Assembly (NCBI GenBank): GCA_018818125.1 | Contig: JAHISQ010000166.1 | Location: 1-64,000 of the forward strand | Direction of reading: 5' to 3' | DNA from: Candidatus Rifleibacteriota bacterium | GTDB lineage: Bacteria > Muiribacteriota > Ozemobacteria > Ozemobacterales > Ozemobacteraceae | Length of the DNA: 64,000 nucleotides | Part shown: one piece after another, positions 5,636 to 20,994 of the stretch | Numbering within the stretch: position 1 is the first letter of the stretch | How the letters are laid out: the number at the start of each line of letters is the position of its first letter | Program-made: the position numbers and the translations under genes | Notes under the pieces: generated by a model | Databases searched by the model: none | What the model was told of the DNA's origin: nothing | Seen by the model: only the letters and a program-made list of their open reading frames with translations

Positions 5636-7624
5636 TTAGTTATAAATTGCAGCGGCGCTGGTTACAAAGCCGGAGTTGAAAAAGTCGTCGTAATCGTATT
5701 CACGATAAAGTTTACCGTCGATCTCATTAAATGGAGGCCCGTCGCCAGTTCTGGGATAGGGATCGTTAACAATGACTTTGCCGTTTTTAATGCCTGTCAC
5801 CACGACGAAATGACCGCCCCAGTCATTAGTCCTGACAAGGATCGGTTTGTTCGCGCGTAAAGCCTTTTCGAAGGCACCAAAGCCTATCGAAACATTCTCT
5901 GATTTTAAACCATAGCTCGTGGCGGCGCTGACATTATTAGAGAACCAGCTTCCACCAGAAGTGCATTGTGCCTTTTTCACCACCTCTTCAATACCCGGGT
6001 TGAAACCGAAGTATTTAAGAATCATCAAGGTCGAGGTTGGTCCACAACTCATGTAAGCAACATTAGTGGCGAGCGGCGGTGCATTATTGATCTGATTGAT
6101 TTTGGGCAGATCCAGAACAACAGAGTTGTTACTGACTTCCGGCTCATTGCTCTGGCCGGAACCATCGGCGCCAGAATTCCCAGTGTTACCATCGTTACCG
6201 CTGCCGGCGGTGCTGCCGCCTTCATTTTGTGACCCGGAAGTGCTACTGCCTGCATTGGAAGCAACTGGAATCTGATTATTTGTATCGGTCGGAAGTGCAG
6301 GACCGGCAGAATCAGCGGCAGTTTCGGAAAAATTCATGTAGATCTTATCCCAGAGAGCCGTAAACGATTTTGAGTCGCCATTAAGAGGATAGGCGCGATA
6401 GGCTGTGCTTTCGGGGTCGTGAGCAATAATGTGAGCTTTCCCGTCTTTGTTACCGTAGCCAACCACTACCATAAAGTGGCCACCATACTCTTTGGTGGTA
6501 ACAATTACCGGACGACCAAGGTTAATTATTTCCATCAAGTCAGCAATTGTACCATTGGTAGAAAAAGAGGCTGATGGAATGTATTTCAGAGCCAGGCGCT
6601 GGACTTCCTGGTAGCCGATACCGGACTGCGCGATATCTTTCTCAGGAACCACCGCCTGAGTTTGCGCAAACAACAAATCTGGGTCAACATTTGCTCCCAG
6701 TGTTCGCAATACCATGGCAAGAGAAGTCCAGCCACAACCACGATGTTTTGAATTGCATTTCCAGCCTGATTTCTGCGAAATGTAGACACATTTGGCGCCA
6801 ACACTATCGGTGAATTCGCCAATCTCAGCTGGTGGCGCATCTGAATTACTAGTCTCCGTCACAACGGGATCTGACCCTGCAGAGAAATCTCCGTCGTTTC
6901 CAAAGACTGAACTATTACCGCCGGTGTTTCCTGCGGCTTCAACACTTGAACCAGTCTGGTTGATTTCGTTGCCCTGATAAATACCGTCCAACTCCTCACT
7001 AGTGCCGGAAGTCATACCACCGACCAGCGACTGAGTTACCAGAGGAATATCCGAAGGAGGCTGAATTTCATCGGGAGTCTTAATGCTGTCCTTTTGTTCC
7101 TGGGTTAATGAAAGGCCGCAGGTGCACTGGTATGGCAGACTTCCAGTTCTCAACAGCTCTCCGACAGCCTCTTGACGCTTTGCAGCGAGACAGGCAATGT
7201 CAACCGAAAAAGGATTCTCAAGATAAGCTTCGCGCGCTTTAGCAAGAGCCTCATCACGTATTGCTGACAACTTATCGAGTATTTTTCTCTCTCGACTCTC
7301 TTTCGAGCCGGTAGCGTTGTCTACAGCTTCTTCAATCTTCTGTAAAGCCAAAGCAAGATCGGATTTGAACTTGGCAGTAATTTTCTTGAAGGCATCAAAA
7401 AACAGTATCATCCCGGCTTTTTCTTTGTCTGACAATTCCTTACCGCTTTTGTCGTTCTCAGAATTTTCAGCGCCGGCGCCGCAGAACGGACAAACATCAG
7501 ACCCGGTGGGGATATCCTTAACGGTAGCAAGATTAGACCACTCCTCTGTTACTCTGGCTGATGCAGGCGCAGCCGAGAACAGGGCTAATAAGAGCAAAAG
7601 CACTACTAGTTTATTTCTATTCAT
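5636..7624 (-). CDS. Exported protein with two C39-like papain-fold peptidase domains
   Basis: A 662-residue protein with a signal peptide (residues 1-23). A cysteine-bearing N-terminal region follows (CPFC 45-48, CTC 167-169) flanking a charged helical stretch. Next come a Gly/Ser/Asn-rich linker, a first peptidase_C39_2-like domain (about 275-410), a second low-complexity linker (440-500) and a second C39-like domain (505-640). Candidate catalytic residues are C297, H383, D403 and C527, H605, D621, in the contexts RGCGWTS/GGHFMVV/HDP and SCGPTS/GGHFVVV/NDP. Such domains cleave peptides or act as transglutaminase-like or inactive binding modules. The ATG at 7624 is preferred because it begins the signal peptide. 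Confidence 0.8.
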   Translation of the reverse strand: MNRNKLVVLLLLLALFSAAPASARVTEEWSNLATVKDIPTGSDVCPFCGAGAENSENDKSGKELSDKEKAGMILFFDAFKKITAKFKSDLALALQKIEEAVDNATGSKESRERKILDKLSAIRDEALAKAREAYLENPFSVDIACLAAKRQEAVGELLRTGSLPYQCTCGLSLTQEQKDSIKTPDEIQPPSDIPLVTQSLVGGMTSGTSEELDGIYQGNEINQTGSSVEAAGNTGGNSSVFGNDGDFSAGSDPVVTETSNSDAPPAEIGEFTDSVGAKCVYISQKSGWKCNSKHRGCGWTSLAMVLRTLGANVDPDLLFAQTQAVVPEKDIAQSGIGYQEVQRLALKYIPSASFSTNGTIADLMEIINLGRPVIVTTKEYGGHFMVVVGYGNKDGKAHIIAHDPESTAYRAYPLNGDSKSFTALWDKIYMNFSETAADSAGPALPTDTNNQIPVASNAGSSTSGSQNEGGSTAGSGNDGNTGNSGADGSGQSNEPEVSNNSVVLDLPKINQINNAPPLATNVAYMSCGPTSTLMILKYFGFNPGIEEVVKKAQCTSGGSWFSNNVSAATSYGLKSENVSIGFGAFEKALRANKPILVRTNDWGGHFVVVTGIKNGKVIVNDPYPRTGDGPPFNEIDGKLYREYDYDDFFNSGFVTSAAAIYN

Positions 7625-7651
7625 AGCAGTTCCTCCCAAAAAATCTTCGTT

Positions 7652-8098
7652 CTACTCGCGAGCGCCACTTTCTCTGACCGGGTTTGAATTTCGGTATGTC
7701 CAGCCGGCAGGCACAGCAGGCTCTTTTCGGAAGTCGGCGCCGAATTCTGCTATGCTCTGATATATTGTCTGTAAGCCAGAAGGCGTATTATAATGGATTT
7801 CCCAGCCAATATACGGATCGACATCCGGCGGAGGTGTCGCCGGCTCTGGCGCAGGATCGGGAACCTGGGGTACAACAGCTGGTTGTGGTGGCAATTCTTC
7901 CTCACTCTCTGGCTGAGCAACATTAATAGAATACTTACCGTCAGAGGAAAGCTGATATTTAAGCGCATAACCCTCATACCCTTTTTGCTGCTCCTCCACT
8001 TTCTGGTCGGAAGTGCCCAGAATTGTCATATCTGGCGACTCTGCGAATACAAAAACAGTCGCAGCAATGAGGCACAGAAAAACAACGAAAATTCTCAT
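7652..8098 (-). CDS. Small exported proline-rich protein
   Basis: A 148-residue protein with a signal peptide (MRIFVVFLCLIAATVFVFA), a proline-rich middle (PPQPAVVPQVPDPAPEPATP) and a short C-terminal region with DPYIGWEIHYNTPSGLQTIY. The family is not recognised. The ATG at 8098 is preferred because AGGGGG lies about 5 bases upstream; longer frames would put charged residues ahead of the signal peptide. It is the first gene of the operon that continues to the C39-like protein 27 bases downstream. A TATACT -10-like box lies about 40 bases upstream on this strand. Confidence 0.7.
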   Translation of the reverse strand: MRIFVVFLCLIAATVFVFAESPDMTILGTSDQKVEEQQKGYEGYALKYQLSSDGKYSINVAQPESEEELPPQPAVVPQVPDPAPEPATPPPDVDPYIGWEIHYNTPSGLQTIYQSIAEFGADFRKEPAVPAGWTYRNSNPVRESGARE

Positions 8099-8438: not shown

Positions 8439-9491
8439 ATGGCAGATTTAAAAAAGTTCATTTTTGCATATATCAAGACAATGAGATTGTATTACTCGTT
8501 TGTCACCGGCATTGCCGGCTGGATAGGCGTATCGTTCTATCTCTGGCTCAAAGAAGTCAGATACGCCACGCCAATTACCGATGACGACTACATGCGTGGC
8601 GTGATTGTTTTGATTATTCTGTTTTCGAGTTGGGGCGTCAACCAGATCTTTAACGACTGGCTGGGCATACCAGAAGATAGAATCAATGACCCGCACAGAC
8701 CTATGGTGTCAGGCGAACTTAACGTAAAGTGGGCTCTTATAACCTCCTGCGCTCTTATGGGCGTAGCAATGGTTGTGTCCTATTTCTTGAATCCATGGTC
8801 TTTGATTCCAATTATAGCCGGGTTTCTGCTTAACTTTTTGTATAACTACAGTAAGGCATGGGGATTATGGGCGAATGTGATTTTTGGAATAATGATTGCT
8901 TCCTGCACGGTCTATGGCTTCCTTGCAATCGGACCGATTCTTAATGAGCCTTTCTTCACGTCAAATCGCCTGTCTGCATTTTTTCTGGTGGCGTACATGA
9001 ACGGCATGATGACCTATTTCACATACTTTAAGGACTACGAAGGCGATAAAGCCGCTGGCAAAAATACTTTTGTTGTCAGATACGGCGTTGATTTCGCCAA
9101 AAAAGTAGGTATAGCGGCCTCGTTCATGCCTACCATAATCTTTTTTGCTCTAAGATACGCGAACCTGTTTCCCTTTGAAATAAATCAGTTTTTTGTCTAT
9201 TGCGGCATCATGACAATTTTTCTACAGTTCTGGACAGCAGTTATTTTTTATAGAAATCCTGTTGGCCCGAGATCTTACTACAACAACGCTAAGAACTTCA
9301 GAGCCTGCGCCTGCGGACAGATTACAATCATTGCGATATTTAATGGAATACTCGCTCTATATCTCTATACAGCGACCTACATTTTTATCGGTTTTTTGTT
9401 TGGACTGCAGCGCGGTCAGAGAACGACTCAGCGAACAGAACGGCGCGGCCCCCTGGAACCACTGGAAGTAGCAGAAATAGCAGAGGACTAA
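8439..9491 (+). CDS. UbiA-family prenyltransferase with altered Asp motif
   Basis: A 350-residue polytopic membrane protein of the UbiA superfamily, which attaches an isoprenoid chain to an aromatic or other acceptor. Motif I reads NDWLGIPEDRINDPHRP (72-88), aligning with NDxxDxxxD of BchG/ChlG-like members. Asn72, Asp73 and Asp80 are kept, but the first metal-binding Asp is Gly76. Motif II is KDYEGDKAAGKN (198-209). About eight membrane helices are visible, then a charged Arg-rich tail (residues 324-350). It is the first gene of the operon and the next gene starts 4 bases after its stop. It could prenylate an acceptor made by the downstream enzymes. The ribosome binding site is weak. Confidence 0.82.
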   Translation: MADLKKFIFAYIKTMRLYYSFVTGIAGWIGVSFYLWLKEVRYATPITDDDYMRGVIVLIILFSSWGVNQIFNDWLGIPEDRINDPHRPMVSGELNVKWALITSCALMGVAMVVSYFLNPWSLIPIIAGFLLNFLYNYSKAWGLWANVIFGIMIASCTVYGFLAIGPILNEPFFTSNRLSAFFLVAYMNGMMTYFTYFKDYEGDKAAGKNTFVVRYGVDFAKKVGIAASFMPTIIFFALRYANLFPFEINQFFVYCGIMTIFLQFWTAVIFYRNPVGPRSYYNNAKNFRACACGQITIIAIFNGILALYLYTATYIFIGFLFGLQRGQRTTQRTERRGPLEPLEVAEIAED

Positions 9492-9495
9492 ATAC

Positions 9496-10695
9496 ATGTC
9501 TGGCAACCCGATGTTTTCTCCACTCAAACTGAAAAGAATAACTCTGCCAAACCGTATCATCAGGGCAGCAACCTTCGAAAACATGGCCGACGCAGATGGC
9601 GTGCCGACCGAAAAGTTCACTGAGCTCTATAAAAAGCTTGCAGCTGGCGGTGCCAGGAACATCATTACAGGCTTTGCGCATACTTCGCGTGAAGGCCGCG
9701 CCATGCAGCCTTTTCAAGCAGGCATCAATGACAGCGTCAAGGTTGAGGCCTGGCAACAAATTATCGATGCTGTTAAATCTTATCAACCCGAAACAAACCT
9801 GATCATTCAGATTTCGCATACCGGTCGCCAGACCATCAGTCGCGCCACTCACATGCCGGTAAAGGGTGCCAGTTCTATCAGATGCACCTATTTTCGCCAA
9901 CGCGTCACGCCGCTGACCACCGACGAAGTAAAAGAAAAGGTCGATGAGTATATTACAGCCGCCAGGAATGCACAAAAAGCCGGATTCGATGCTGTACAGA
10001 TACATTGCGCGCACGGCTACCTGATCCATCAGTTCCTCTCGCCTTTTACCAATAACCGTGATGACGAATATGGGAACGACAGGCTGCTCTTTCTCAGGCA
10101 AATCGTCGAAGGCATCAAAGCCGCTACCAGGCTGCCAATTTTTCTTAAAATAAGCGCCGGCGATGATCGGCAGCGCGGACTGAATCTGCCGCTGGTCATG
10201 TCTTACTGGCCGGTAATCGACAGTCTCGAAGTTGACGCGGTCGAAATCAGCTATGGCATGATGGAAGTCGCCTTTAACATCATCAGAGGCGATCACCCTC
10301 TCGACCCGGTTTTAAAGCACAACAGTCTATTCAACCGCTATCATCCGGCGCTGCGCTGGATATTCAAACACTTCATATTTCATTGGTACAAACGCAGCTT
10401 TATCAACTACTGCGACCTTTACAATCTCGAAAATGCCGCCAGAATCAAAACAATTTCTAAAACGCCAATTCTGGTCACCGGTGGCATCAGAAAAAAAAGC
10501 CAGATCGACTTCATCATAAACAAGCGCGGTCTCGACGGAATTACTCTGAGCCGACCCTTTGTCTGTGAACCCGATTTTGTCAACAGGCTCGCAGCTGATG
10601 GAGAAGTCGTTTCACGCTGCACAAGCTGCAATCTCTGTACCGTAATGTGCGACAGTAAGCAACCACTGCGCTGCTACCAAGGGCCTGCAAAATGA
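9496..10695 (+). CDS. Old yellow enzyme family FMN oxidoreductase
   Basis: A 399-residue TIM-barrel flavoenzyme of the NADH:flavin oxidoreductase/OYE family, which reduces activated C=C bonds. It shows the N-terminal FSPLKLKRITLPNRIIRAAT segment, the QISHTGRQ strand, HCAHGYLIHQFLSPFTNNR (the active-site and FMN region) and a VTGGIRKK phosphate-binding loop. The tail CTSCNLCTVMC...C (about 375-395) resembles the 4Fe-4S site of 2,4-dienoyl-CoA reductase/BaiCD-type members, but the FAD/NADH domains that normally follow are absent. It may therefore need a separate electron donor. It overlaps the exporter gene by 4 bases (ATGA). Confidence 0.85.
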   Translation: MSGNPMFSPLKLKRITLPNRIIRAATFENMADADGVPTEKFTELYKKLAAGGARNIITGFAHTSREGRAMQPFQAGINDSVKVEAWQQIIDAVKSYQPETNLIIQISHTGRQTISRATHMPVKGASSIRCTYFRQRVTPLTTDEVKEKVDEYITAARNAQKAGFDAVQIHCAHGYLIHQFLSPFTNNRDDEYGNDRLLFLRQIVEGIKAATRLPIFLKISAGDDRQRGLNLPLVMSYWPVIDSLEVDAVEISYGMMEVAFNIIRGDHPLDPVLKHNSLFNRYHPALRWIFKHFIFHWYKRSFINYCDLYNLENAARIKTISKTPILVTGGIRKKSQIDFIINKRGLDGITLSRPFVCEPDFVNRLAADGEVVSRCTSCNLCTVMCDSKQPLRCYQGPAK

Positions 10696-12986
10696 CAAAC
10701 CGCATGAATGCTTTCGCTGTAATGCTGGTAAAGCGGGCAAAGTATGTTTTTGCTCCGTTCATGATTGTGCTGCTGCTTTCATTTCTGCTGATTGGTCCAG
10801 AAATGTGGCCAATTCAGATCAACAATACTCTCGACACTCTGCTTGAGCAGGGCACAGAACAGGCCGCCATCGACAAAAGCATACAGCAAACCTTTGGGCT
10901 GCTCGATGAAATAGTGATTCTCGCCTATCATGACTCTGAACTATTCACCCCGCCAAATCTGCGCCTGATCAAAGAGATGACTGACCAGATCGAAACAGTT
11001 GAGGGTGTCAAAAACTGCTTTTCAATTGCAAACACCCCGTTTTTTCGCAATTACGAAAAAAATGGCGAATCAGTTGTCGAATCAGCACCGCTGCTCGACA
11101 AAATACCAGAAGATGCAGAGGCGCTGGCGCGACTTAAAGCAGAGGCCACCAACAACAAACTTTTTCGTAACAATATCATCTCACCTGATGGCAACACCGC
11201 AGCATTAAACATAATTCTGCGAGCCGGTCTTGACCCGTTCGCCAAGGAAGCTATCGTTCGCCAGATTCGCGCCGACTTCACCAAACGCGCTGAAACCGCA
11301 ACCGGCCAGTTTTATTTCACCGGCATGCACGTGTTCATGGAAACCACCGGCGTTCAGATGCAGCGCGATGTCATGCAATTCTCGATTGTTTCGGTCATTC
11401 TTCTGTTCATCGGACTTTACGCAATTTTCCGCTCGATAGCACTAGCGCTTATAGGCATAACAACGGCCGGCATCGCGAACTGGCTGCTTTTTTCAACTCT
11501 CCATCTCCTGGGAAAAACCCTGTCCATATCAACAACGCCAGTGCCGGCAATCACTGTCGGCCTGTCGATCGCCTACGTTCTCCACCTGATCGTCGCCCGC
11601 AAGGAAGGCATACTCGACGACGTCAAAGAAACAACACAGATTTTCATTGGCAACTTTCTCTCGGCTTTGACAACGATGATCGGCTTTTTGTCGCTCTGCC
11701 TCAACCCAATTCCAACTTTACAGGATTTCGGGCTTTTTGCCGGGCTTGGCACCTTTTTCGCGGCAATTTCCGCGATGTTTTTCGGATTTCCGCTATTACA
11801 GAAGCTCAAAACCGTTCCGTCTCACGATTTTGGCGAAAGCGTTAAAACTGCGGTCGAAAGTGTATTCTTCCGCCATCGCCGACTGGTCGTGGTGGTTTCA
11901 GTGCTGATCTTTTTCAGCGGCGCGTTTCTTTTGCGGATGGAAGTCGAAACCGACTATTACCAGTATTATCTGCGTTCTGCGCCAATGGTCAGATCAGTCG
12001 ATTTCGTTAACCGCAATATCGGCGGGCAATACCCGATAGTCGTCGAATTTACGACCGGCGGAGTTGATCAGGTTTACGAAGCAGGCACGCTGGCCTGGCT
12101 CGAAAAGCTCTCGCAACACGCAATGACTTATAAGGGCGTTGATAAGGTGATAACCTATCTTGATCTGCTTAACGACGGGCAACGCGCCTTCGCCGACAAG
12201 CCCGAACCCGGATGGTTCAATAATCGTAATATGGTCGGCCAGGTCGCCATGATGGTAAACGATGCCGGGCCTGAGCTCAGCTCTTATTACGTGGATTCAG
12301 CTGCACAAAAAACCCAGGTTTTCATCAGAACCAGCCACATCAACTCTGCTGCATTTCTTGCAATCGACGAGGGTCTGCGCAGCTTTCTCGCCAGAGAAAC
12401 TCCCAAGGGCATCAGTTACAAGATTGGTGGCACCTATCTGCGCACCGTACAGTCAGCTAACCGTATGGCTATTTCGCAGCTTTTCGGAACATTCCTGGCC
12501 TTCTGCGTGCTGTTTTTGGTGGCATTTATAGCCATTCCGAACGTAAAGCTCATTTTGATGGCCTTCGTTGCCAATCTGCTGCCAATTTTTGGTGTCTATG
12601 GCCTGCTTGGCATGCTTGGCGAAACCCTAAACATGGGCACCACAACTATTGCAGCCATCGCGGTTGGCATCGGCATGGATGACACCATGCATTTCCTAAC
12701 CCGGTATACCATCAACCTGAAAGCCAACGGCGACCCGCATGAAAGCGCACGGCAGGTTATTCATTCTTCCGGCGTGTCAATGATTCTCACGTCATGTATG
12801 ATCTCACTGGCTTTTCTATCACTGTCGCTGAGTATCATCAAGCCAATTTACCAGCTCGGCATCTTTACCAGCGTTACCATGACGCTGTGTCTGCTTGCCG
12901 ATCTGTTTCTGATGCCGGTCCTGGTGAACTGGAACACCCCGCCCAGAGAACAGTCGGTCAAACCGCCGGAAGTATCAAACGCTTAA
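10692..12986 (+). CDS. RND/MMPL-family lipid exporter
   Basis: A 764-residue inner-membrane protein with the duplicated RND layout: TM1 (about 20-37), a large periplasmic loop (45-215), a bundle of five helices (225-380), a second TM/loop pair, and a final bundle (about 590-750). The second half keeps GIGMDDTMHFLTRY near residue 660, with acidic proton-relay residues. The matching first-half motif reads GLSIAYVLHLI near 292, where Asp is replaced by Ala. The family includes HpnN and MmpL transporters that move hopanoids, glycolipids and polyketide lipids. Coupled to the reductase by an ATGA overlap, it is the likely exporter of the operon's lipid. Confidence 0.85.
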   Translation: MTNRMNAFAVMLVKRAKYVFAPFMIVLLLSFLLIGPEMWPIQINNTLDTLLEQGTEQAAIDKSIQQTFGLLDEIVILAYHDSELFTPPNLRLIKEMTDQIETVEGVKNCFSIANTPFFRNYEKNGESVVESAPLLDKIPEDAEALARLKAEATNNKLFRNNIISPDGNTAALNIILRAGLDPFAKEAIVRQIRADFTKRAETATGQFYFTGMHVFMETTGVQMQRDVMQFSIVSVILLFIGLYAIFRSIALALIGITTAGIANWLLFSTLHLLGKTLSISTTPVPAITVGLSIAYVLHLIVARKEGILDDVKETTQIFIGNFLSALTTMIGFLSLCLNPIPTLQDFGLFAGLGTFFAAISAMFFGFPLLQKLKTVPSHDFGESVKTAVESVFFRHRRLVVVVSVLIFFSGAFLLRMEVETDYYQYYLRSAPMVRSVDFVNRNIGGQYPIVVEFTTGGVDQVYEAGTLAWLEKLSQHAMTYKGVDKVITYLDLLNDGQRAFADKPEPGWFNNRNMVGQVAMMVNDAGPELSSYYVDSAAQKTQVFIRTSHINSAAFLAIDEGLRSFLARETPKGISYKIGGTYLRTVQSANRMAISQLFGTFLAFCVLFLVAFIAIPNVKLILMAFVANLLPIFGVYGLLGMLGETLNMGTTTIAAIAVGIGMDDTMHFLTRYTINLKANGDPHESARQVIHSSGVSMILTSCMISLAFLSLSLSIIKPIYQLGIFTSVTMTLCLLADLFLMPVLVNWNTPPREQSVKPPEVSNA

Positions 12987-12999
12987 GGAGTACAAGCGC

Positions 13000-14241
13000 A
13001 TGGATTCAAACCTGATAACTGGAATAGGCCTGATTACAGCTGCCGGCGTTGGCTGTGAAGAAAACTATCGTAACTTCGAAGCTCGAAAGTCGGGTATCTG
13101 CACGATTACCAGATTTGAGTTGCCAACCGCCAAGGTCAAAACCAACTTTGCCGGTCTGATCAAGAATCTGCCCAATGAAGCGCTACCACCAGAACTACTG
13201 CCTCTGCTGAACTCTGAAGACCTTGCCCAGGATTACGTTAAAGCAGCAGTCTATGTTGCCGCCGAAGCAATAAAAGACGCCGGCTGCGCCGAAAATATCA
13301 AGCTAGCGCCACGGCGAACCGGCCTGATCGTCGCCAGCAGCCTTGGTAATTTTCTCAATGTCTCCGAGCTGGTCAAAGACTACTTTATGAAAGAGCTTTA
13401 CAAGATAACCTCGCTGATTCACGGCATGAACAGCTATCTACCCTCTCGTCTGGGCAGTATGTTCGGTGTCAGCGGCCCCTGCTACTTTATCAGCTCATCA
13501 TGCACCAGTGCGGCGAATGCCATATTGCAGGCAGACTCCCTCATAAAAAGCGGAATTGTCGATCGTATGATCGTTTGCGCCGTTGATGTCTGTCTCGAAA
13601 CCGGCACCTTCCATCTCTGGAACAAAATAAGAGTACTCTCTTACCGCAACGACAGCCCACAGACGGCCTGCCGGCCCTATTGCAAAACCCGCGACGGCAT
13701 TGTCGTCTCAGAAGCAGCAGGTTGCTTTATTGTCGAAAAGCCCGCAGTAGCTAACTCGAAAGGGCATGCCACAATAAAGGGTATAGGCATGGCCAACGGC
13801 GCCAACGATTTTCTAAAACCTTCGCCGGAACTACTGGAAGCCGCGATCAGAGAAGCGATCGAACAGGCTGACACTACTTCCGACCAGATAGACTTTATTG
13901 CCGGCTCGGCATCTGGCTCTCAGTACTGCGACCATTTCGAACCTGAGGCGATATGCCGCATTTTCGGAGACAGGGCTGCCAAGATCCCACTGTTTCCTTA
14001 CAAGAGTTTTCTCGGTACAACCTTCGGCACCCAGGCTTTGAGCGAAGGCGCTTTTGCCATTAGAACCATGAACGAAAACAAAGTACCCGAGCCATTAAAC
14101 ATCTTCGAACCCGACGAGCGTGTCAAAGCCAACGCCTATTACAAAGCCTCTGATTATAGCGGTTACAACATAAACAACATGCTTTTCGTCAACTACGGCT
14201 TTGCTGGCAACCATATGGCCGCCGTGCTCGCCAAATGCTGA
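13000..14241 (+). CDS. Beta-ketoacyl synthase homologue lacking both catalytic histidines
   Basis: A 413-residue thiolase-fold protein of the KAS I/II (FabF) family. The nucleophile Cys168 lies in ISSSCTSAANAI, and Lys335 of the KS motif is kept. The first catalytic His region reads SASGS at 303-307 instead of HGTGT, and the second reads KSFLGTTFG (335-343) with Thr340 in place of His. Without them, decarboxylation of malonyl-ACP should fail, while acyl transfer through Cys168 could persist. It may be an acyl-transferase or a loading enzyme rather than an elongating synthase. AAGGAG precedes the ATG, and the ACP gene follows. Confidence 0.85.
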   Translation: MDSNLITGIGLITAAGVGCEENYRNFEARKSGICTITRFELPTAKVKTNFAGLIKNLPNEALPPELLPLLNSEDLAQDYVKAAVYVAAEAIKDAGCAENIKLAPRRTGLIVASSLGNFLNVSELVKDYFMKELYKITSLIHGMNSYLPSRLGSMFGVSGPCYFISSSCTSAANAILQADSLIKSGIVDRMIVCAVDVCLETGTFHLWNKIRVLSYRNDSPQTACRPYCKTRDGIVVSEAAGCFIVEKPAVANSKGHATIKGIGMANGANDFLKPSPELLEAAIREAIEQADTTSDQIDFIAGSASGSQYCDHFEPEAICRIFGDRAAKIPLFPYKSFLGTTFGTQALSEGAFAIRTMNENKVPEPLNIFEPDERVKANAYYKASDYSGYNINNMLFVNYGFAGNHMAAVLAKC

Positions 14242-14280
14242 TAATGGAGTGTAATAACCATTTGCGTAAAAGGAAGTAGT

Positions 14281-14532
14281 ATGAGTAAACCTGAAATAAC
14301 GCGTGAGCAGCTTATCGAAAAAATTGTTGCGGCAATCAGTAAAGTCGCAAAAATCACAATTCCGCCGGAAAAATATGGCGAGAACCTGTTTCAGCTCGGC
14401 ATGGACAGCATCAAGGCCATTCAGGTCGTCAACATTCTCGAAGACGAACTTGATCTGATGGTCGATGATGCACATCTGCCCAAATTCACTTCGATCGACG
14501 CGATCGCCGAACATTTCGACAATCTCAAGTAA
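14281..14532 (+). CDS. Acyl carrier protein
   Basis: An 83-residue four-helix ACP with the phosphopantetheine site LGMDSIKAIQ (Ser about residue 43), preceded by a NLFQLG loop and followed by the acidic recognition helix. It would hold acyl or ketide intermediates as thioesters for the neighbouring ketosynthase-like, dehydratase and AONS-like enzymes. A dedicated ACP inside the operon indicates a pathway separate from housekeeping fatty acid synthesis, as in bacterial ceramide and aryl polyene loci. The AAAGGAAG ribosome binding site fits the ATG. Confidence 0.93.
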   Translation: MSKPEITREQLIEKIVAAISKVAKITIPPEKYGENLFQLGMDSIKAIQVVNILEDELDLMVDDAHLPKFTSIDAIAEHFDNLK

Positions 14533-14544
14533 GAAGGCCGGAAA

Positions 14545-15333
14545 ATGAGCGAAAGCTGCTGTTTTTCGATTACCGAGCTGCCATGCCTGGTCGACCACCA
14601 GCTCGAAGGCACACCATTTGTACCAATGGCCGTGCTTATCGATCAGCTCGCACGCACACTCAACAACACAATCGAAAGACTGACTGACATAGCGGTGAAA
14701 ATGCCGGTGATGCTGCGCAAGAACCGCGCGAAAACGCTGTTCTGCCATAGAGAAGGTAACAGCACCAGCCTGCTTGATGAAACCGGCAATCTCTACGCAT
14801 CCCTCGCAAGTGCAACAACCAACCACGCTAAATCTGCGCCACCACCTGTGCAGTCCTTGAGACTACCAGCGAGAACCTCAAGTATTGGCCGCAGTAAGCT
14901 CTATCCGGCACTTATGTTTCATGGCCCGACCTTCCAGGCCGACTTCAAATTTTATGAGTTTAGCGCACAGACAGCAGTGGTCGAGTTGAATGGTTTCGAC
15001 TCCGACAACGAATCATTAGGCCGATATCGCTCCGGGCAGCAGATTCCAATCATTCTCGCTGATCTGGCGTTTCAGGTTATCGGCCTGCATCTGATGGCGT
15101 TCAAGGGCATCTACGCGCTGCCAGCCACGTGCGAAATGATGATCACGCACGATCCTGGACCCGTAAAAACAGCACTGATAAGAGTCTTCGCACAAGAAAA
15201 TGGCAGCTATAAGCTGGTTGCAACATCTGTTGCGAGAGCAATTTTGCTCACCTGCGATGGGTTGCGCTTTCAAAACACATCAAGACCCGTCGAACCCGAC
15301 AAAAAAAACCTCCTGGAGTCCATAAAAACATGA
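14545..15333 (+). CDS. Polyketide-type dehydratase (double hot-dog)
   Basis: A 262-residue protein with both halves of a PKS dehydratase-like fold. The N-terminal half has LVDHQLEGTPFVPMAVLID (catalytic His18, with the HxxxGxxxxP pattern). The C-terminal half has YPALMFHGPTFQ (120-131) and LADLAFQ (171-177) with Asp173 as the likely partner acid. Such domains dehydrate beta-hydroxyacyl-ACP to the enoyl form. It stands alone rather than inside a megasynthase and follows its ACP by 12 bases. An enoyl product would be a natural substrate for the OYE-type reductase in the same operon. A non-catalytic role is possible, since no ketoreductase with standard KR features is adjacent. Confidence 0.75.
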   Translation: MSESCCFSITELPCLVDHQLEGTPFVPMAVLIDQLARTLNNTIERLTDIAVKMPVMLRKNRAKTLFCHREGNSTSLLDETGNLYASLASATTNHAKSAPPPVQSLRLPARTSSIGRSKLYPALMFHGPTFQADFKFYEFSAQTAVVELNGFDSDNESLGRYRSGQQIPIILADLAFQVIGLHLMAFKGIYALPATCEMMITHDPGPVKTALIRVFAQENGSYKLVATSVARAILLTCDGLRFQNTSRPVEPDKKNLLESIKT

Positions 15334-15348
15334 GAGCGAGGAAATAGT

Positions 15349-16632
15349 ATGAGCGAAAACGAAGCCACCACCGAATCTCTATATGAACCACCACCAGAGA
15401 GCAATGATATAACCGAAAAGGCGCGGTTCTTTTATCCAAAACTGCTCGACATCCAGCAGAAAGGTCATTACACCTACCGAAGAACACTGACATCACCAAG
15501 CCAGCACCGGGTTACCACCGTAGACCCTGAAACCGGCATCGAACGAGACATGCTGATGTTCGCTTCAAACAACTATCTAGGACTGTCAACCCACCCGCGC
15601 GTTGTCGAAGCAGCCAAAAAAGCTGTTGTCAATTATGGCTACGGCACCGGCTCAGTAGCACTGTTAAGCGGAACTTCAGACGTTCATCGCAAACTTGAAC
15701 AAAAAATCGCCGAATTCTATCGCTGCGAAAGCGCAGTGGTGTTTCCGACCGGGTATCAGGCCAATGTTGGCACCATTCAGGCAATGCTGGGTGCCAGTGA
15801 TGTCGCAATTTCCGACATGTACGCACATGCGTCGCTGATAGATGGCGTAAAACTAAGCGATGGCAGCCTCAAATATTTTCAGCACAATGACATGGAGCAC
15901 CTTGAACAGACCCTTAAGCGTGCCTCACGCTTTTTCAAAGGCAAACTGATCATCGTCGATGGTGTATTCAGCATGGACGGAGATATCGCGCCGCTCAACG
16001 AAATTCAGAAACTGGCAAAAAGCTATGGTGCATCGGTTCTCATTGACGAAGCGCATGCCGTCGGCATGATCGGCGATACCGGACGTGGCAGCGCGGAACA
16101 TTTCGGACTTGAGGGGCAGATCGATCTTACCATCGGTACGCTTTCGAAAGCTCCCTCGGGAATCGGCGGGTATCTTACCGGCAAAGCCGAAATAGTTGAG
16201 TATGTGCGACATTTTGCACGTTCCTACATTTTTTCGACGAGCATTCCGGTGTCAGTGGCTGCCGGATTAATCGAAGTATTCGATATTATCGCGCATGACA
16301 GCGACCTTCGAAACCGACTGCGCACAAACATTGATTATCTGCTTGCCGGCTTTCACAAACTCGGGTTCAATACTTTCGGGTCTTCTACCGCGATTATTCC
16401 GGTTCTGATTCCAGACGACATCAAGCTCAGAAAGGTCTGCAAGGAACTGCATGAGCGTGGCATCTTCGCAACACCGGTTACTTTTCCGGCTGTCGCCAAG
16501 GGGCGATCACGCATCAGATTCTCGGTAATGGCCACGCACACACGCGAAGAGCTGGACACCCTGCTCAACGCAATGTCAGAACTCAAACAAACTTTCGATC
16601 TTGGCAACGAAAGCAGTGACGCTAAGATATAG
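15349..16632 (+). CDS. Serine palmitoyltransferase-like alpha-oxoamine synthase
   Basis: A 427-residue PLP enzyme of the alpha-oxoamine synthase family (SPT, KBL, BioF, CqsA). It has the FASNNYLGLSTHP segment (71-83), His160 in YAHASLIDG that stacks on PLP, DEAHAVG with Asp233/His236, and the Schiff-base Lys267 in GTLSKAPSGIGGY. The about 25-residue extension before FYPKLLDIQQ resembles SPT-like members more than BioF. The family condenses an acyl thioester with an amino acid, losing CO2. With an ACP beside it, the acyl donor is probably acyl-ACP, giving a 3-keto long-chain amine. The exact amino acid cannot be deduced. A GCGAGGAAAT site precedes the ATG. Confidence 0.87.
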   Translation: MSENEATTESLYEPPPESNDITEKARFFYPKLLDIQQKGHYTYRRTLTSPSQHRVTTVDPETGIERDMLMFASNNYLGLSTHPRVVEAAKKAVVNYGYGTGSVALLSGTSDVHRKLEQKIAEFYRCESAVVFPTGYQANVGTIQAMLGASDVAISDMYAHASLIDGVKLSDGSLKYFQHNDMEHLEQTLKRASRFFKGKLIIVDGVFSMDGDIAPLNEIQKLAKSYGASVLIDEAHAVGMIGDTGRGSAEHFGLEGQIDLTIGTLSKAPSGIGGYLTGKAEIVEYVRHFARSYIFSTSIPVSVAAGLIEVFDIIAHDSDLRNRLRTNIDYLLAGFHKLGFNTFGSSTAIIPVLIPDDIKLRKVCKELHERGIFATPVTFPAVAKGRSRIRFSVMATHTREELDTLLNAMSELKQTFDLGNESSDAKI

Positions 16633-16676
16633 GTTATTATGAATTGTCATCGCAACAGTGTGTCAGGAGCAAAAAG

Positions 16677-17702
16677 TTGAAAATACTGGTAACCGGAGCG
16701 AACGGGTTTATCGGAAGCCACATTGTCAGAGCTTTTCATAAAGCCGGGCGAGCCGATATTACGGCGCTGGTCCGACCAACCGCTGATCTCAGGTTCATCA
16801 AACGTTACCCTGTTGATATAATGCATGGTGACCTTGCCGGCGACGATTTCGACGCCACGCAGCTGCAGACCTTTGACAGCGTAGTACATGCTGGCGCCAA
16901 AGTTGGCGACTGGGGCGACTACAAGGACTTTTTCAAAGCTAACGTTCTGGGCAGTCTGAAATTATTCGATGCAACCCGCTCAGATGCAGGGTTTGTCCTG
17001 GTCAGCTCAAATGCTGTGCTGGGTGAAGAAGATGAACCAAAGCCCAAAGACGAGCAGGCCGAACGCCGACCCGCGCTCGAATACTTCGGCGAAAGCCTGC
17101 TGCCATCAGCCATGAATCACTATCGTCTGACCAAAGCTCTCGCTGAAATACTTCTGATCAGGCGGGCACAAAAAACCGGCCGAAAACTGACTGTTATCAG
17201 GCCGGTATGGGTATTCGGGCCACGCGAGTTCAATGCCGGCCCCTATGAATACTGCAAAACCGTAAAAAGCGGGATGCCTTTTATGCCAGGATGCAGCAGC
17301 AACCGTTTTCATACTATCTATGCCGGTGATCTTGCCAGAATCGTCGTAAGGGTCAGCGAGCATCTCAAAGAAGGCGTAAACATCTACAATATTGGCAACC
17401 CACAGGTTCCACTTATGAAAGACTACTGGGGTTCTTTCTGTGCAGCGATGGGTGTCAAGGCACCTCAGAATCTGCCGAAATGGCTGCTCTATCCGCCTGC
17501 AATGTTGCTGGAAGCGGCATATAGTCTGGCCGGAGCGGCAAATCCGCCGCTGTTCACACGCGCAAGAGTTTATATGTTCTATGCAAACAACGTTTATAAT
17601 GTTAACAAGGTAATCAAGGACTATGAAATCGACGATTTCACAGATCTCGAAAAAGCGACAAAAACGACTGTCCGCTGGTGGCGGATGAACGGCTATCTAT
17701 AA
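16677..17702 (+). CDS. NAD(P)-dependent epimerase/reductase (extended SDR, CerR-like)
   Basis: A 341-residue extended short-chain dehydrogenase with TGANGFIG (6-13) for the dinucleotide and the YRLTK active site (Tyr149, Lys153). The TTG start at 16677 is chosen because AGGAG sits 7 bases before it and the Rossmann strand starts at once; an upstream TTG at 16644 has no such site. Bacterial ceramide loci carry a reductase of this family (CerR) that reduces the ketone made by the SPT enzyme, which suits its place directly after the AONS-like gene. It could instead be a sterol- or sugar-epimerase-like enzyme. Confidence 0.82.
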   Translation: MKILVTGANGFIGSHIVRAFHKAGRADITALVRPTADLRFIKRYPVDIMHGDLAGDDFDATQLQTFDSVVHAGAKVGDWGDYKDFFKANVLGSLKLFDATRSDAGFVLVSSNAVLGEEDEPKPKDEQAERRPALEYFGESLLPSAMNHYRLTKALAEILLIRRAQKTGRKLTVIRPVWVFGPREFNAGPYEYCKTVKSGMPFMPGCSSNRFHTIYAGDLARIVVRVSEHLKEGVNIYNIGNPQVPLMKDYWGSFCAAMGVKAPQNLPKWLLYPPAMLLEAAYSLAGAANPPLFTRARVYMFYANNVYNVNKVIKDYEIDDFTDLEKATKTTVRWWRMNGYL

Positions 17703-17720
17703 ATTACAAGGAGACTTGAG

Positions 17721-19019
17721 ATGAGCAAACCGCAATTTTTGATTGGTCCGGCAAAGCTTTTGTTCTATATTCGCCTGATTTTGCATGGTTTCTTTCACTA
17801 TCTGATCAGATTACTCCGCGGGAAGTTTGGCCCGACAGCCTTTGTCAGGCTTTTAATGAGGCTGATTCTCTTTCTTAACGCAGTAAAACACAACAAAGTC
17901 GTCGTTGTTGACGGCAAATACAAGGTTCAGCTCTATCTGCCAGCTTACCCGACTCCCGCATTCTGGGAATCTATCGAAAAGTTTGTCAGACCCGACCCAG
18001 GTCCGCTTACCGTAGTATTTTCGATGACCAAAGCCTGCGCCTACAAATGTCCGCACTGCTACCAGCGCAACGATACCGGCGCTGACATGTCGGTTGAGCT
18101 TCTGCAGAAAACTGCCCGCCAGATGCAGGATATTGGCGTTACCATGTTCGACATTGAGGGTGGCGAACCGCTTCTGATGTTCGACAACCTCATCGAACTC
18201 CTCAAGGCATTTGACAACAAACGCGAAACCTGGGTTAACACCACCGGGCACACTCTCACCCCGGAAAAAGTGCGCAGACTCAAAGAAGCCGGGCTGTTCG
18301 GCGTCATGATTTCGCTGCACTCAATCGACGAGAAGGAATACGAAAAATTCACCGGGTTTCCCGGCTCCTTCGAGATTGCGCGTGATGCGGCAAGACAGTT
18401 TGTTGAAGCCGGAATCATGGTCGCCATCAACTGTTGCCCGTCAGCCGAAATGGTTGCTGATGGCACCGTTGAGAGAATTTTTGAACTGACAAAAACCTGG
18501 AACTGCTCCTTTATTCAGGTTATTCACGGCAAATCAGCCGGAGCATGGCTCGGCAAAGACGATGAAATGATCAACGCCGATGCTTCAATCAAAGAACTGC
18601 GCCGCATTCATATCGATTACAACAGCCTGCCACAGTTTCGTGACCACCCGGCACCGGCCGTTCAGGTTTACGAAGAAGACGAGCAGCACTTTGGTTGCAC
18701 CTCTGGCGGCATCGACCGCTTCTATATCGGCGCAAACGGCGACGTTCAGCCCTGCGAATTCCTTAATGTGTCGTTCGGCAATGTTAACGAAGAAGACTTT
18801 AAAACCATTTTCAGCCGCATGCGCGAGTACTTCAAAGAACCCGGTTGCAGATGGCTATGTTCACGCGAAGCGCACACTATCCACGAAACTATGATAGAGA
18901 ACAATATTACTGCCACTCCACTACCCTGGAAATACACCAAAGATCTGCTGAAAAAATGGAATTATGGCCGCAAAACCCCGCTATACAGCAAAATGGGAAT
19001 CTACAAAAACAAAAGCTGA
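17721..19019 (+). CDS. Radical SAM protein with SPASM-type C-terminus
   Basis: A 432-residue protein. An N-terminal amphipathic or membrane-associated stretch (about 10-55) precedes a radical SAM domain with CAYKCPHC (Cys106, 110, 113) and the GGEPLL motif. The C-terminal region has FGCTSGG, QPCEF and CRWLC cysteines, resembling a SPASM auxiliary cluster. It would cleave SAM to a 5'-deoxyadenosyl radical to modify a substrate. The membrane-facing start and its place in the operon suggest a lipid rather than a peptide substrate, and no small precursor peptide gene is visible. AAGGAG precedes the ATG. Its TGA overlaps the next ATG. Confidence 0.85.
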   Translation: MSKPQFLIGPAKLLFYIRLILHGFFHYLIRLLRGKFGPTAFVRLLMRLILFLNAVKHNKVVVVDGKYKVQLYLPAYPTPAFWESIEKFVRPDPGPLTVVFSMTKACAYKCPHCYQRNDTGADMSVELLQKTARQMQDIGVTMFDIEGGEPLLMFDNLIELLKAFDNKRETWVNTTGHTLTPEKVRRLKEAGLFGVMISLHSIDEKEYEKFTGFPGSFEIARDAARQFVEAGIMVAINCCPSAEMVADGTVERIFELTKTWNCSFIQVIHGKSAGAWLGKDDEMINADASIKELRRIHIDYNSLPQFRDHPAPAVQVYEEDEQHFGCTSGGIDRFYIGANGDVQPCEFLNVSFGNVNEEDFKTIFSRMREYFKEPGCRWLCSREAHTIHETMIENNITATPLPWKYTKDLLKKWNYGRKTPLYSKMGIYKNKS

Positions 19020-19975
19020 TGCCAACTCCTGTCAAATCACTCTTCATGATTCTAAATCCCTCTGCCCGGTCGTTTGCCGGGCAGAGAAAATGGCCACGCA
19101 TATTTGAACTGCTCGACCAGTCTGGAGTGAATTACGAACACGCGTTGACTGAAAAAGCCGGCGATGGCACAAGACTGGCAGCAGCCGCTGCCCGGCAGGG
19201 TTTCGATGCCATTGTCGCGGTTGGCGGCGATGGCACCATAAACGAGGTTATCAGCGGCGTTGTTCCGGTTCTTGAGCAAAACCCAGGCAGCAACTGTCGA
19301 TTCGGAGTTATCTATACCGGCACCAGTCCAGACTTTTGCGCGTTTCACGGCCTGTCACTCGACCCTGATACGATCATCAAGCGCATTCTTGCCGGTCACA
19401 CGCGCCGGGTCGATCTCGGACAGATAACCCACCAGACCAGTGACACCAACCAGAAAGTCACCAGATTTTTTTCATGTTCGGCCAACTTCGGCATGGGCGC
19501 GGCAATTGCCCGAGGCTCAAACACCGGTTTACGCAAGCGTTTTGGCGATTTTATCGGCACTCTGCTCTCTTTGCTGGATTCAATCAAAAACTATGTTCCA
19601 CCGCGTTTCCGGCTAAGAATCGATGGAGTCGAGCAGAGTTTTGAGCAGGTTCATAATATTTTCATTGGCAAAAACCCTTATATCGCTTCCGGCATCAAGC
19701 TCAAGCTTGATATTGCCGCCGATGACGGCAGAATGTATCTGGTTGCGCTGCATGGCATCTCGAAGTTCAGGCTTTTATCAGTGTTGCCGCGCGTTTACAC
19801 CGGCTCTTTCTGCGGTGATTTCAAACCGGTCTTCTGCCGCAATGTCGAAATTCTCGATGGCGGCGGCGCTAATGAAGTCGAATACGACGGCGACCCGCAA
19901 GGTCTGCTACCGGCTCGCATCAGCATAATGCCGGGTATATTGCCGGTTCTGGGCGGCGACATTCTAACTTATTGA
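19019..19975 (+). CDS. Diacylglycerol/sphingoid kinase-like lipid kinase
   Basis: A 318-residue protein of the DAGK catalytic family. The nucleotide-binding motif is VGGDGTINEV (68-77). A GTSPDF segment replaces the usual GTGNDF, and the C-terminal EYDGDPQG resembles the catalytic-acid motif. The start is the ATG at 19019, which overlaps the upstream TGA (TGATG). A longer frame begins at 18845 but lies inside the radical SAM gene. The family phosphorylates diacylglycerol, sphingosine or ceramide; a ceramide kinase of this type occurs in Caulobacter. Here it may phosphorylate the long-chain amino alcohol made upstream. Confidence 0.85.
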   Translation: MPTPVKSLFMILNPSARSFAGQRKWPRIFELLDQSGVNYEHALTEKAGDGTRLAAAAARQGFDAIVAVGGDGTINEVISGVVPVLEQNPGSNCRFGVIYTGTSPDFCAFHGLSLDPDTIIKRILAGHTRRVDLGQITHQTSDTNQKVTRFFSCSANFGMGAAIARGSNTGLRKRFGDFIGTLLSLLDSIKNYVPPRFRLRIDGVEQSFEQVHNIFIGKNPYIASGIKLKLDIAADDGRMYLVALHGISKFRLLSVLPRVYTGSFCGDFKPVFCRNVEILDGGGANEVEYDGDPQGLLPARISIMPGILPVLGGDILTY

Positions 19976-20004
19976 GGCTACACGGGCTTATGGAGGGTGG
20001 CAGC

Positions 20005-20994
20005 ATGGACGAATTCAAGACAATACGAGCCATAGCGGGAGCATTCGAACGTTCCCCTGTTCAGCAGAACGCGCTGTTTGAATCTGACGCCGAGGTCTTC
20101 ACTATCGGCTCGACACGCCTGGCGATAACTACTGATGAATTCTGCGAAGAAGAAGACGGCTTCAGATCGACAAACATCGAGCAACTGGGCTGGAACCTGG
20201 CGGTAGCGACACTGAGCGATCTGATCGCAACCGGCGCTGATCCCGCTTTTTTTCTGCATGTGCTCGGGCTTCCAGAGGCCGATTCCGGGTCCTTTTCACA
20301 CGAGTTGATGCAGGGGGTGAGTAGTGCTCTCAAACAAACCAGTTGTTATCTGCTCGGAGGCGATACTTCATGTGGAGAGCACTGGCGCTATGTCGGCACT
20401 GCTATCGGAACCTTCGCAGGCGAACCGCTGTTCAGAACCACAAAAGCTGACAGGCTGTTGCTCTATACTACCGGCAGCTTTGGTGACGGCAATCTTTCAG
20501 CACTCAATGCTGCCTATCAGGCAAAATTTGAACTTCGCCACGATTTCATGCGACGGACCAGACCTTATCTGGGTTTTGGAATGGACAGCAGTGACGGTCT
20601 GCGCAACACATTAGTAACACTGTGCATGGTTAATCCCGGTTACAAAATTACCGCAACAGCGGATAAAGTGTCTGTTCACCCAGATGTCGCCGCCTTCTGC
20701 AAGAGCTCCGGCATGCCACCTCAAGGCTTTTTACTTGGATCTGGCGGTGAATACGAGTTGGTCATAGGCGTCCACCCAGATCAGCAAAAGGCATTTGAGC
20801 AAGCCTGTCAACCCGGTGAAGTAGCCTGCATAGGCAGCTTTGAAAAGTCAGACCAACCAGGTCTGTTCTGGCAGAAGACTTCAGAAGACGCTGTAAGACC
20901 TGATATTGCCATGCAGATCGACCCGCGCTTCGAAAAAGATCGCGAGGCCTACGTCAACGAGATTCTCGAAATCACCCGCCGCCTGTTTGGTTAA
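20005..20994 (+). CDS. ThiL/PurM-like ATP-binding kinase homologue
   Basis: A 329-residue protein of the AIR synthase-related (PurM/ThiL/HypE/SelD) superfamily. ThiL-like features are an N-terminal TTDEF segment, LSDLIATGADPAFF, GGDTS, MDSSDGL (compare ThiL DISDGL) and GGEYEL (compare GEDYEL). ThiL phosphorylates thiamine monophosphate, but nothing else here belongs to thiamine synthesis. It is probably a paralogue acting on another phosphorylated metabolite, perhaps following the lipid kinase. GGAGG lies 8 bases before the ATG at 20005. An upstream TTG at 19972 would overlap the previous gene and is less likely. Confidence 0.75.
   Translation: MDEFKTIRAIAGAFERSPVQQNALFESDAEVFTIGSTRLAITTDEFCEEEDGFRSTNIEQLGWNLAVATLSDLIATGADPAFFLHVLGLPEADSGSFSHELMQGVSSALKQTSCYLLGGDTSCGEHWRYVGTAIGTFAGEPLFRTTKADRLLLYTTGSFGDGNLSALNAAYQAKFELRHDFMRRTRPYLGFGMDSSDGLRNTLVTLCMVNPGYKITATADKVSVHPDVAAFCKSSGMPPQGFLLGSGGEYELVIGVHPDQQKAFEQACQPGEVACIGSFEKSDQPGLFWQKTSEDAVRPDIAMQIDPRFEKDREAYVNEILEITRRLFG

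Follow-up and report, generated by a model that had tools for sequence, protein, structure and literature searches.

We analysed a window of 64,000 nucleotides (contig JAHISQ010000166.1, assembly GCA_018818125.1) from a genome of the Riflebacteria, in the genus common to HGW-Riflebacteria-1 and Candidatus Rifleibacterium amylolyticum, and describe here a run of eleven open reading frames at positions 8439-20994 for which we propose a dedicated pathway to a sphingoid-type phospholipid other than ceramide. As an initial annotation had stated, the eleven are co-directional and closely packed; all lie on the + strand, with spacings of 4-39 bases or short overlaps, and the protein families named there were confirmed by our Pfam and NCBIfam profile searches. 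The run opens with a UbiA-family prenyltransferase that is closest to archaeal digeranylgeranylglyceryl phosphate synthase (DGGGPS) (8439..9491; PF01040, E 7e-28). It is followed by an OYE-family flavin ene-reductase with a C-terminal Cys motif (9496..10695; PF00724, E 1e-45; PDB matches of the YqjM/NamA type), an MMPL/RND transporter of the HAE3 type that is likely a lipid exporter (10692..12986; PF03176, E 2e-21; TIGR00921, E 7e-36), a FabF-like enzyme of the ketosynthase (KS) fold in which profiles and motifs reveal the active-site Cys and the loss of both catalytic His (13000..14241), an acyl carrier protein (ACP) whose sequence contains a DSIK phosphopantetheine site (14281..14532; PF00550, E 1e-10), and a PKS-type double-hotdog dehydratase, recognized by its motifs and by a PF21089 match below the Pfam cut-off (14545..15333; E 2e-4). 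The remaining five genes encode an alpha-oxoamine synthase (AONS) that profiles and trees place in a clade of its own (15349..16632), an extended SDR reductase with a TTG start (16644..17702; PF01370, E 4e-29), a radical SAM/SPASM enzyme whose N-terminus consists of two helices (17721..19019; PF04055, E 2e-20, and PF13186), a DAGK/YegS-type lipid kinase (19019..19975; PF00781, E 4e-25), and a ThiL-like kinase of the AIRS superfamily (20005..20994; PF00586, E 2e-16). The start of the lipid kinase is most likely at 19019, overlapping the radical SAM stop codon by one base, and that of the ThiL-like protein at 20005. A scan for promoters and terminators gave sites in numbers not above those in shuffled sequence.

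The comparison across genomes that the initial annotation had called for was carried out with a profile of the radical SAM protein and with a scan of GTDB contigs, and the cluster proved to be conserved in at least five phyla, namely Riflebacteria, Bdellovibrionota, Myxococcota, Lentisphaerota and Bacteroidota. Its distribution is patchy: the radical SAM protein occurs in 11/40 Riflebacteria genomes (in 10 of those at ≥60% identity), and clusters were counted in 4/369 genomes of Bdellovibrionota, 16/368 of the Lentisphaerota phylum group, 7/374 of Bacteroidales and 1/195 of Myxococcota. Two loci from the genus of the window genome (L014 and L015 in our numbering) are fully syntenic, with 45-91% identity per gene. 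Comparison of 42 loci defined a six-gene core that consists of UbiA, the radical SAM/SPASM enzyme, the DAGK-type kinase, the ThiL-like kinase, AONS and SDR, and all six families are found together in 23 of these loci, many others being cut by contig ends. The eleven-gene unit of the initial annotation thus holds within one Riflebacteria genus, but the conserved unit is the six-gene core, to which exporter, OYE, ACP, KS and dehydratase are accessory. Loci outside Lentisphaerota commonly have ACP and KS, the dehydratase and the MMPL protein are mostly confined to Riflebacteria, with MMPL also in one Bdellovibrionales cluster, and a usable OYE sequence was present in 16/42 loci; most Lentisphaerota operons are the bare six genes, without MMPL, OYE, ACP, KS and dehydratase. 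Non-core neighbour families each occur near four of the 42 loci at most, and a LolA-like lipid carrier adjoins four clusters (L016, L017, L022 and L038). The full synteny within the genus and the joint occurrence of all core families in 23/42 loci, with clusters in at least five phyla, place the cluster beyond chance. Among 40 Riflebacteria genomes, nine encode both UbiA and the radical SAM protein, one encodes each of them singly, and 29 encode neither (Fisher p = 3.6e-7, uncorrected for kinship), and the two share genomes even when found on separate contigs or at a distance of about 50 kb. Such unlinked UbiA genes are still accompanied by OYE and usually by MMPL, and in the genome with UbiA alone the contig ends inside the KS gene. 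Pairwise divergences of the core genes correlate as well, with rho values of 0.31-0.80 among 20-29 non-redundant loci, and at most 3/500 permutations gave values as high.

Several local peculiarities were seen in this comparison. The Candidatus Rifleibacterium amylolyticum locus (L015) has an extra gene between ACP and dehydratase (7507-8070), encoding a secreted-looking protein of 187 residues without a Pfam match. One core operon (L043, 7760-17520) lies on a Bacteroidetes-binned contig alongside lipoprotein-like starts and AT-rich reading frames, one of them with PT repeats, and its bin label may be wrong. In the window itself, the operon is flanked downstream by an unrelated reading frame and upstream, on the - strand, by a protein of 667 residues that contains a pair of C39-like peptidase domains and linkers rich in Gly, Ser and Asn (5636-7639); neither flank is common to related clusters.

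The AONS position is the most informative one with respect to the chemistry. The window enzyme, which is the only AONS of its genome at E≤1e-30, scores below every NCBIfam equivalog cut-off, for KBL (407/460 bits), BioF (394/426 bits) and ALAS (294/339 bits) as well as for SPT, where it falls far under NF047600, the family of the Bacteroidota SPT (376/640 bits; PDB 3a2b), and under NF047599 (327/500 bits). The AONS phylogeny that had been suggested as a check did not place it in the BioF/KBL clade; it groups with its cluster relatives in a clade distinct from the KBL, BioF, ALAS and SPT references (bootstrap/SH-aLRT 94/89), which is also recovered in a larger tree (SH-aLRT 95). The original designation as an SPT-like enzyme is partly right: the window protein itself is outside the SPT clade, and in five Lentisphaerota operons (L086, L088, L090, L093 and L095) the AONS position is occupied by an SPT-clade enzyme. 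These enzymes share 49-51% identity with the Sphingobacterium SPT of known structure versus 35-39% with E. coli KBL, and they reach 481-500 bits with NF047600, which is below its cut-off of 640, with the next family at ≤386 bits. A third, distant AONS clade takes the same slot in Bacteroidales, one Bdellovibrionota genome and some Riflebacteria. Because an SPT-clade enzyme replaces AONS in an otherwise equal operon, the AONS step would be expected to make a sphingoid-type long-chain aminoketone, and this exchange is the best evidence for a sphingoid-like long-chain base; serine is only probably the substrate of the window enzyme. On a Thioclava plasmid is the gene for the sister of the cluster AONS, a placement with weak support (L063, 3578-5215); its neighbours encode an ACP, a ketosynthase, an AMP ligase and a class III aminotransferase.

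For UbiA, a family profile matched DGGGPS best among PDB entries (6m31, E 5e-16), followed by chlorophyll synthase (2.5e-11) and the UbiA homologues 4tq3/4od4 (4e-4 or weaker), and the AlphaFold model (pLDDT 88) gave DGGGPS structures as the best Foldseek matches by E-value (6m31/7bpu). Pfam, the model and two Asp-rich motifs agree on the UbiA fold; the second motif is intact (KDYEGD), and the first is altered, ND..G...ED being the form in most members and SD..D...ED that of Lentisphaerota. DGGGPS prenylates a lipid phosphate, and by analogy the cluster enzyme is likely to act on a lipid phosphate as well. An archaeal ether-lipid pathway was considered and rejected, since GGGP synthase (PF01884) was absent from the window genome and 22 relatives in a search that was positive for 7/14 control genomes. 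The C-terminus of the window UbiA (9425-9491, about 22 residues, pLDDT below 50) is unlike that of all orthologues, which finish in short charged tails such as FGLHDDDKS, and a frameshift or assembly slip is a possible cause.

The active-site motifs of the other core proteins are partly intact and partly altered. The DAGK-type kinase has the GGDGT motif and, in the alignment, a family signature GTSPDFC, and the SDR protein has the Ser and Tyr-x3-Lys residues conserved in ten orthologues. The ThiL-like protein, whose best PDB match is ThiL (1vqv, E 7e-13), retains TTD, SD, GGD and D.S.G and has EED in place of the VHF of ThiL. Since its gene is conserved in a lipid cluster and it scores below the TIGR01379 cut-off (110/184 bits in the window, 140 in L034), a plain thiamine-phosphate kinase is unlikely, though the rest of the window genome has no other ThiL above that cut-off. 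In the radical SAM enzyme, a member of the SPASM group, C106, C110 and C113 (CxxxCxxC) as well as C326, C345 and C380 are invariant in 15 orthologues, and the closest folds to its model (pLDDT 88) are the SPASM enzymes SuiB, SkfB, BlsE and PqqE (TM about 0.5). A distant relative with 25% identity is encoded on plasmid pHIC of Haliovirga abyssi (Fusobacteriota; L024, 13878-22446), next to a KASIII-like protein, a DMT transporter, DUF1302, an MMPL transporter and a LolA-like lipoprotein-sorting protein, and this region is possibly another uncharacterised lipid cluster. Among the accessory enzymes, the dehydratase shows HxxxGxxxxP, HGPTFQ and the second-half Asp (DxxxQ), largely conserved in orthologues. 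The KS lacks a Cys-His-His triad in the window and its type-1 relatives, where CTS is retained, HGT is changed to SGS and KSxxGH to KSFLG[TS]. The His-less KS of the initial annotation is therefore correct for this group and not for the Ozemobacter-type clusters L019/L020, whose KS retains the triad. With both His lost and the Cys kept, the type-1 KS is unlikely to catalyse the usual decarboxylating condensation and would probably serve as an acyl transferase or loader. A resemblance of the cluster to hopanoid genes (HpnA, HpnN) was dismissed, as the scores were weak and generic.

From these data, we infer a pathway whose product is a phosphorylated lipid of the sphingoid type, further elaborated by UbiA and the radical SAM enzyme, and we put the probability of this reading at about 0.5. 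The His-less KS and the dehydratase would load the acyl chain onto ACP and trim it there. AONS would condense this chain with an amino acid (probably serine), and the resulting 3-keto long-chain base would be reduced at its ketone by SDR. The DAGK-type kinase could then phosphorylate the 1-hydroxyl, and the ThiL-like kinase might add a second phosphate or perform another ATP-driven activation. The DGGGPS-like UbiA may attach a prenyl chain to the amino-lipid phosphate, so that the lipid would gain its two tails with no N-acylation step. The radical SAM enzyme, together with OYE where present, may modify the chains or the head group, and the MMPL protein, in some genomes with the LolA-like protein, would carry the lipid towards the outer membrane. 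The second-tail role is given to UbiA because no acyltransferase family was found in the clusters or the core, the ceramide synthase bCerS not having been searched in the rest of the genome, and because UbiA is closest to DGGGPS; we consider a prenyl chain as the second tail a tentative proposal. Slightly more doubtful still is the full sphingoid-isoprenoid hybrid, a new membrane-lipid class in which a prenyl ether or amine replaces the N-acyl group on the long-chain base before modification by the radical SAM enzyme. The adjacent lipid kinase, the exporter-type MMPL in Riflebacteria and the Bdellovibrionales cluster, and the LolA-like neighbours are consistent with a lipid pathway. The amino-lipid class initially assigned stands insofar as an amino-lipid type pathway with ACP-linked oxoamine chemistry is conserved, whereas its sphingoid character rests on the SPT replacement in Lentisphaerota.

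Several observations weigh against this pathway. The window AONS is no closer to SPT (39% identity) than to KBL (39.5%) or Thermus BioF/KBL (41%), several Riflebacteria clusters (L016, L018, L020 and L022) have no ThiL-like gene next to them, and one Asp of the first UbiA motif is a Gly in most members. The fold and sequence of UbiA leave its donor and acceptor unfixed, the fold search gave no chemistry for the radical SAM enzyme, and the genome could have an N-acyltransferase gene at another site.

Four other explanations have to be weighed. The main rival, which we regard as unlikely, is that UbiA receives its donor from the two kinases, the alcohol from AONS and SDR being converted to a monophosphate by the DAGK-type and to a diphosphate by the ThiL-like enzyme, so that UbiA transfers this chain, not an isoprenoid, to a head group or acceptor that is also handled by the radical SAM enzyme. 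The two kinase genes usually adjoin, ThiL, the nearest solved relative of the ThiL-like protein, phosphorylates a phosphate, the similarity of UbiA extends to chlorophyll synthase, and the two-kinase route from phytol to phytyl-diphosphate is a parallel. However, UbiA donors must ionise easily, as allylic ones do, and a sphinganine-type 1-diphosphate is not allylic; moreover, UbiA is retained with several clusters that have no ThiL-like gene beside them. Somewhat less probable than this is a small lipophilic cofactor or secondary metabolite of a quinone-, pyrrole- or tetrapyrrole-like type, for which AONS would provide an aminoketone for the ring, UbiA would prenylate it, and the NirJ/AhbD/PqqE-like radical SAM enzyme and OYE would modify it. 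It would account for the relatively best scores of the window AONS with the KBL and BioF models, the NCBIfam resemblance of the radical SAM protein to the GeoRSP, NirJ, AhbD and PqqE types, and the weak similarity of OYE to bilirubin reductase, but the SPT-clade replacement, the ACP partner, the DAGK lipid kinase and the MMPL and LolA-like neighbours indicate a long-chain lipid.

We think it improbable that the cluster performs ordinary ceramide or phosphosphingolipid synthesis of the Caulobacter type (spt, acp, cerR, bCerS and the ceramide kinase CC_1160) with UbiA, radical SAM, OYE and ThiL-like proteins as passengers. A PLP-dependent alpha-oxoamine synthase with ACP, an SDR and a lipid kinase are indeed shared, and AONS, ACP, SDR and the DAGK-family kinase have their counterparts among the genes of the Caulobacter pathway (PMC11324152). 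However, the gene set in section 8 of that source includes no UbiA, radical SAM or ThiL-like step, and OYE is likewise outside the Caulobacter ceramide set, as the initial annotation had noted for UbiA, OYE and radical SAM, whereas across five phyla few cluster members are as constant as UbiA and the radical SAM enzyme, which share genomes even without linkage. The two systems also differ in that the cluster itself contains no ceramide synthase and the window AONS is outside the SPT clade. Chance neighbourhood or a metagenome-binning artefact, which might be suspected because every named carrier is a metagenome-assembled genome or a bin, is in practice refuted: many assemblies and phyla have this core on contigs independent of one another, and the divergence of its genes is correlated.

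In the sphingolipid cluster of Pseudomonas fluorescens MYb115, a carrier-bound chain reportedly meets an oxoamine synthase, as proposed here, and we know of no UbiA/radical SAM/kinase core in that cluster. This polyketide-derived cluster is a near known system (PMC12134224). A full-text literature search, which left most subscription journals outside its coverage, found no description of a UbiA, SPT and radical SAM gene set and no assigned product for homologues, in agreement with the initial view of the pathway as undescribed. In a Black Sea survey, oxoamine synthases outside its SPT-like clade were deemed probably unrelated to sphingolipids (PMC11334938). The SPT exchange in the clusters suggests that some of them may still belong to sphingoid-type pathways.

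In summary, a six-gene signature, found sparsely in at least five phyla, rumen Lentisphaerota and Bacteroidales among them, predicts an undescribed lipid, and an SPT homologue in a genome need not imply ceramide. The signature allows the lipid question to be put to any organism that carries it. If the hybrid structure is true, bacterial and eukaryotic sphingoid chemistry and archaeal-type prenyl transfer would be combined in one molecule.

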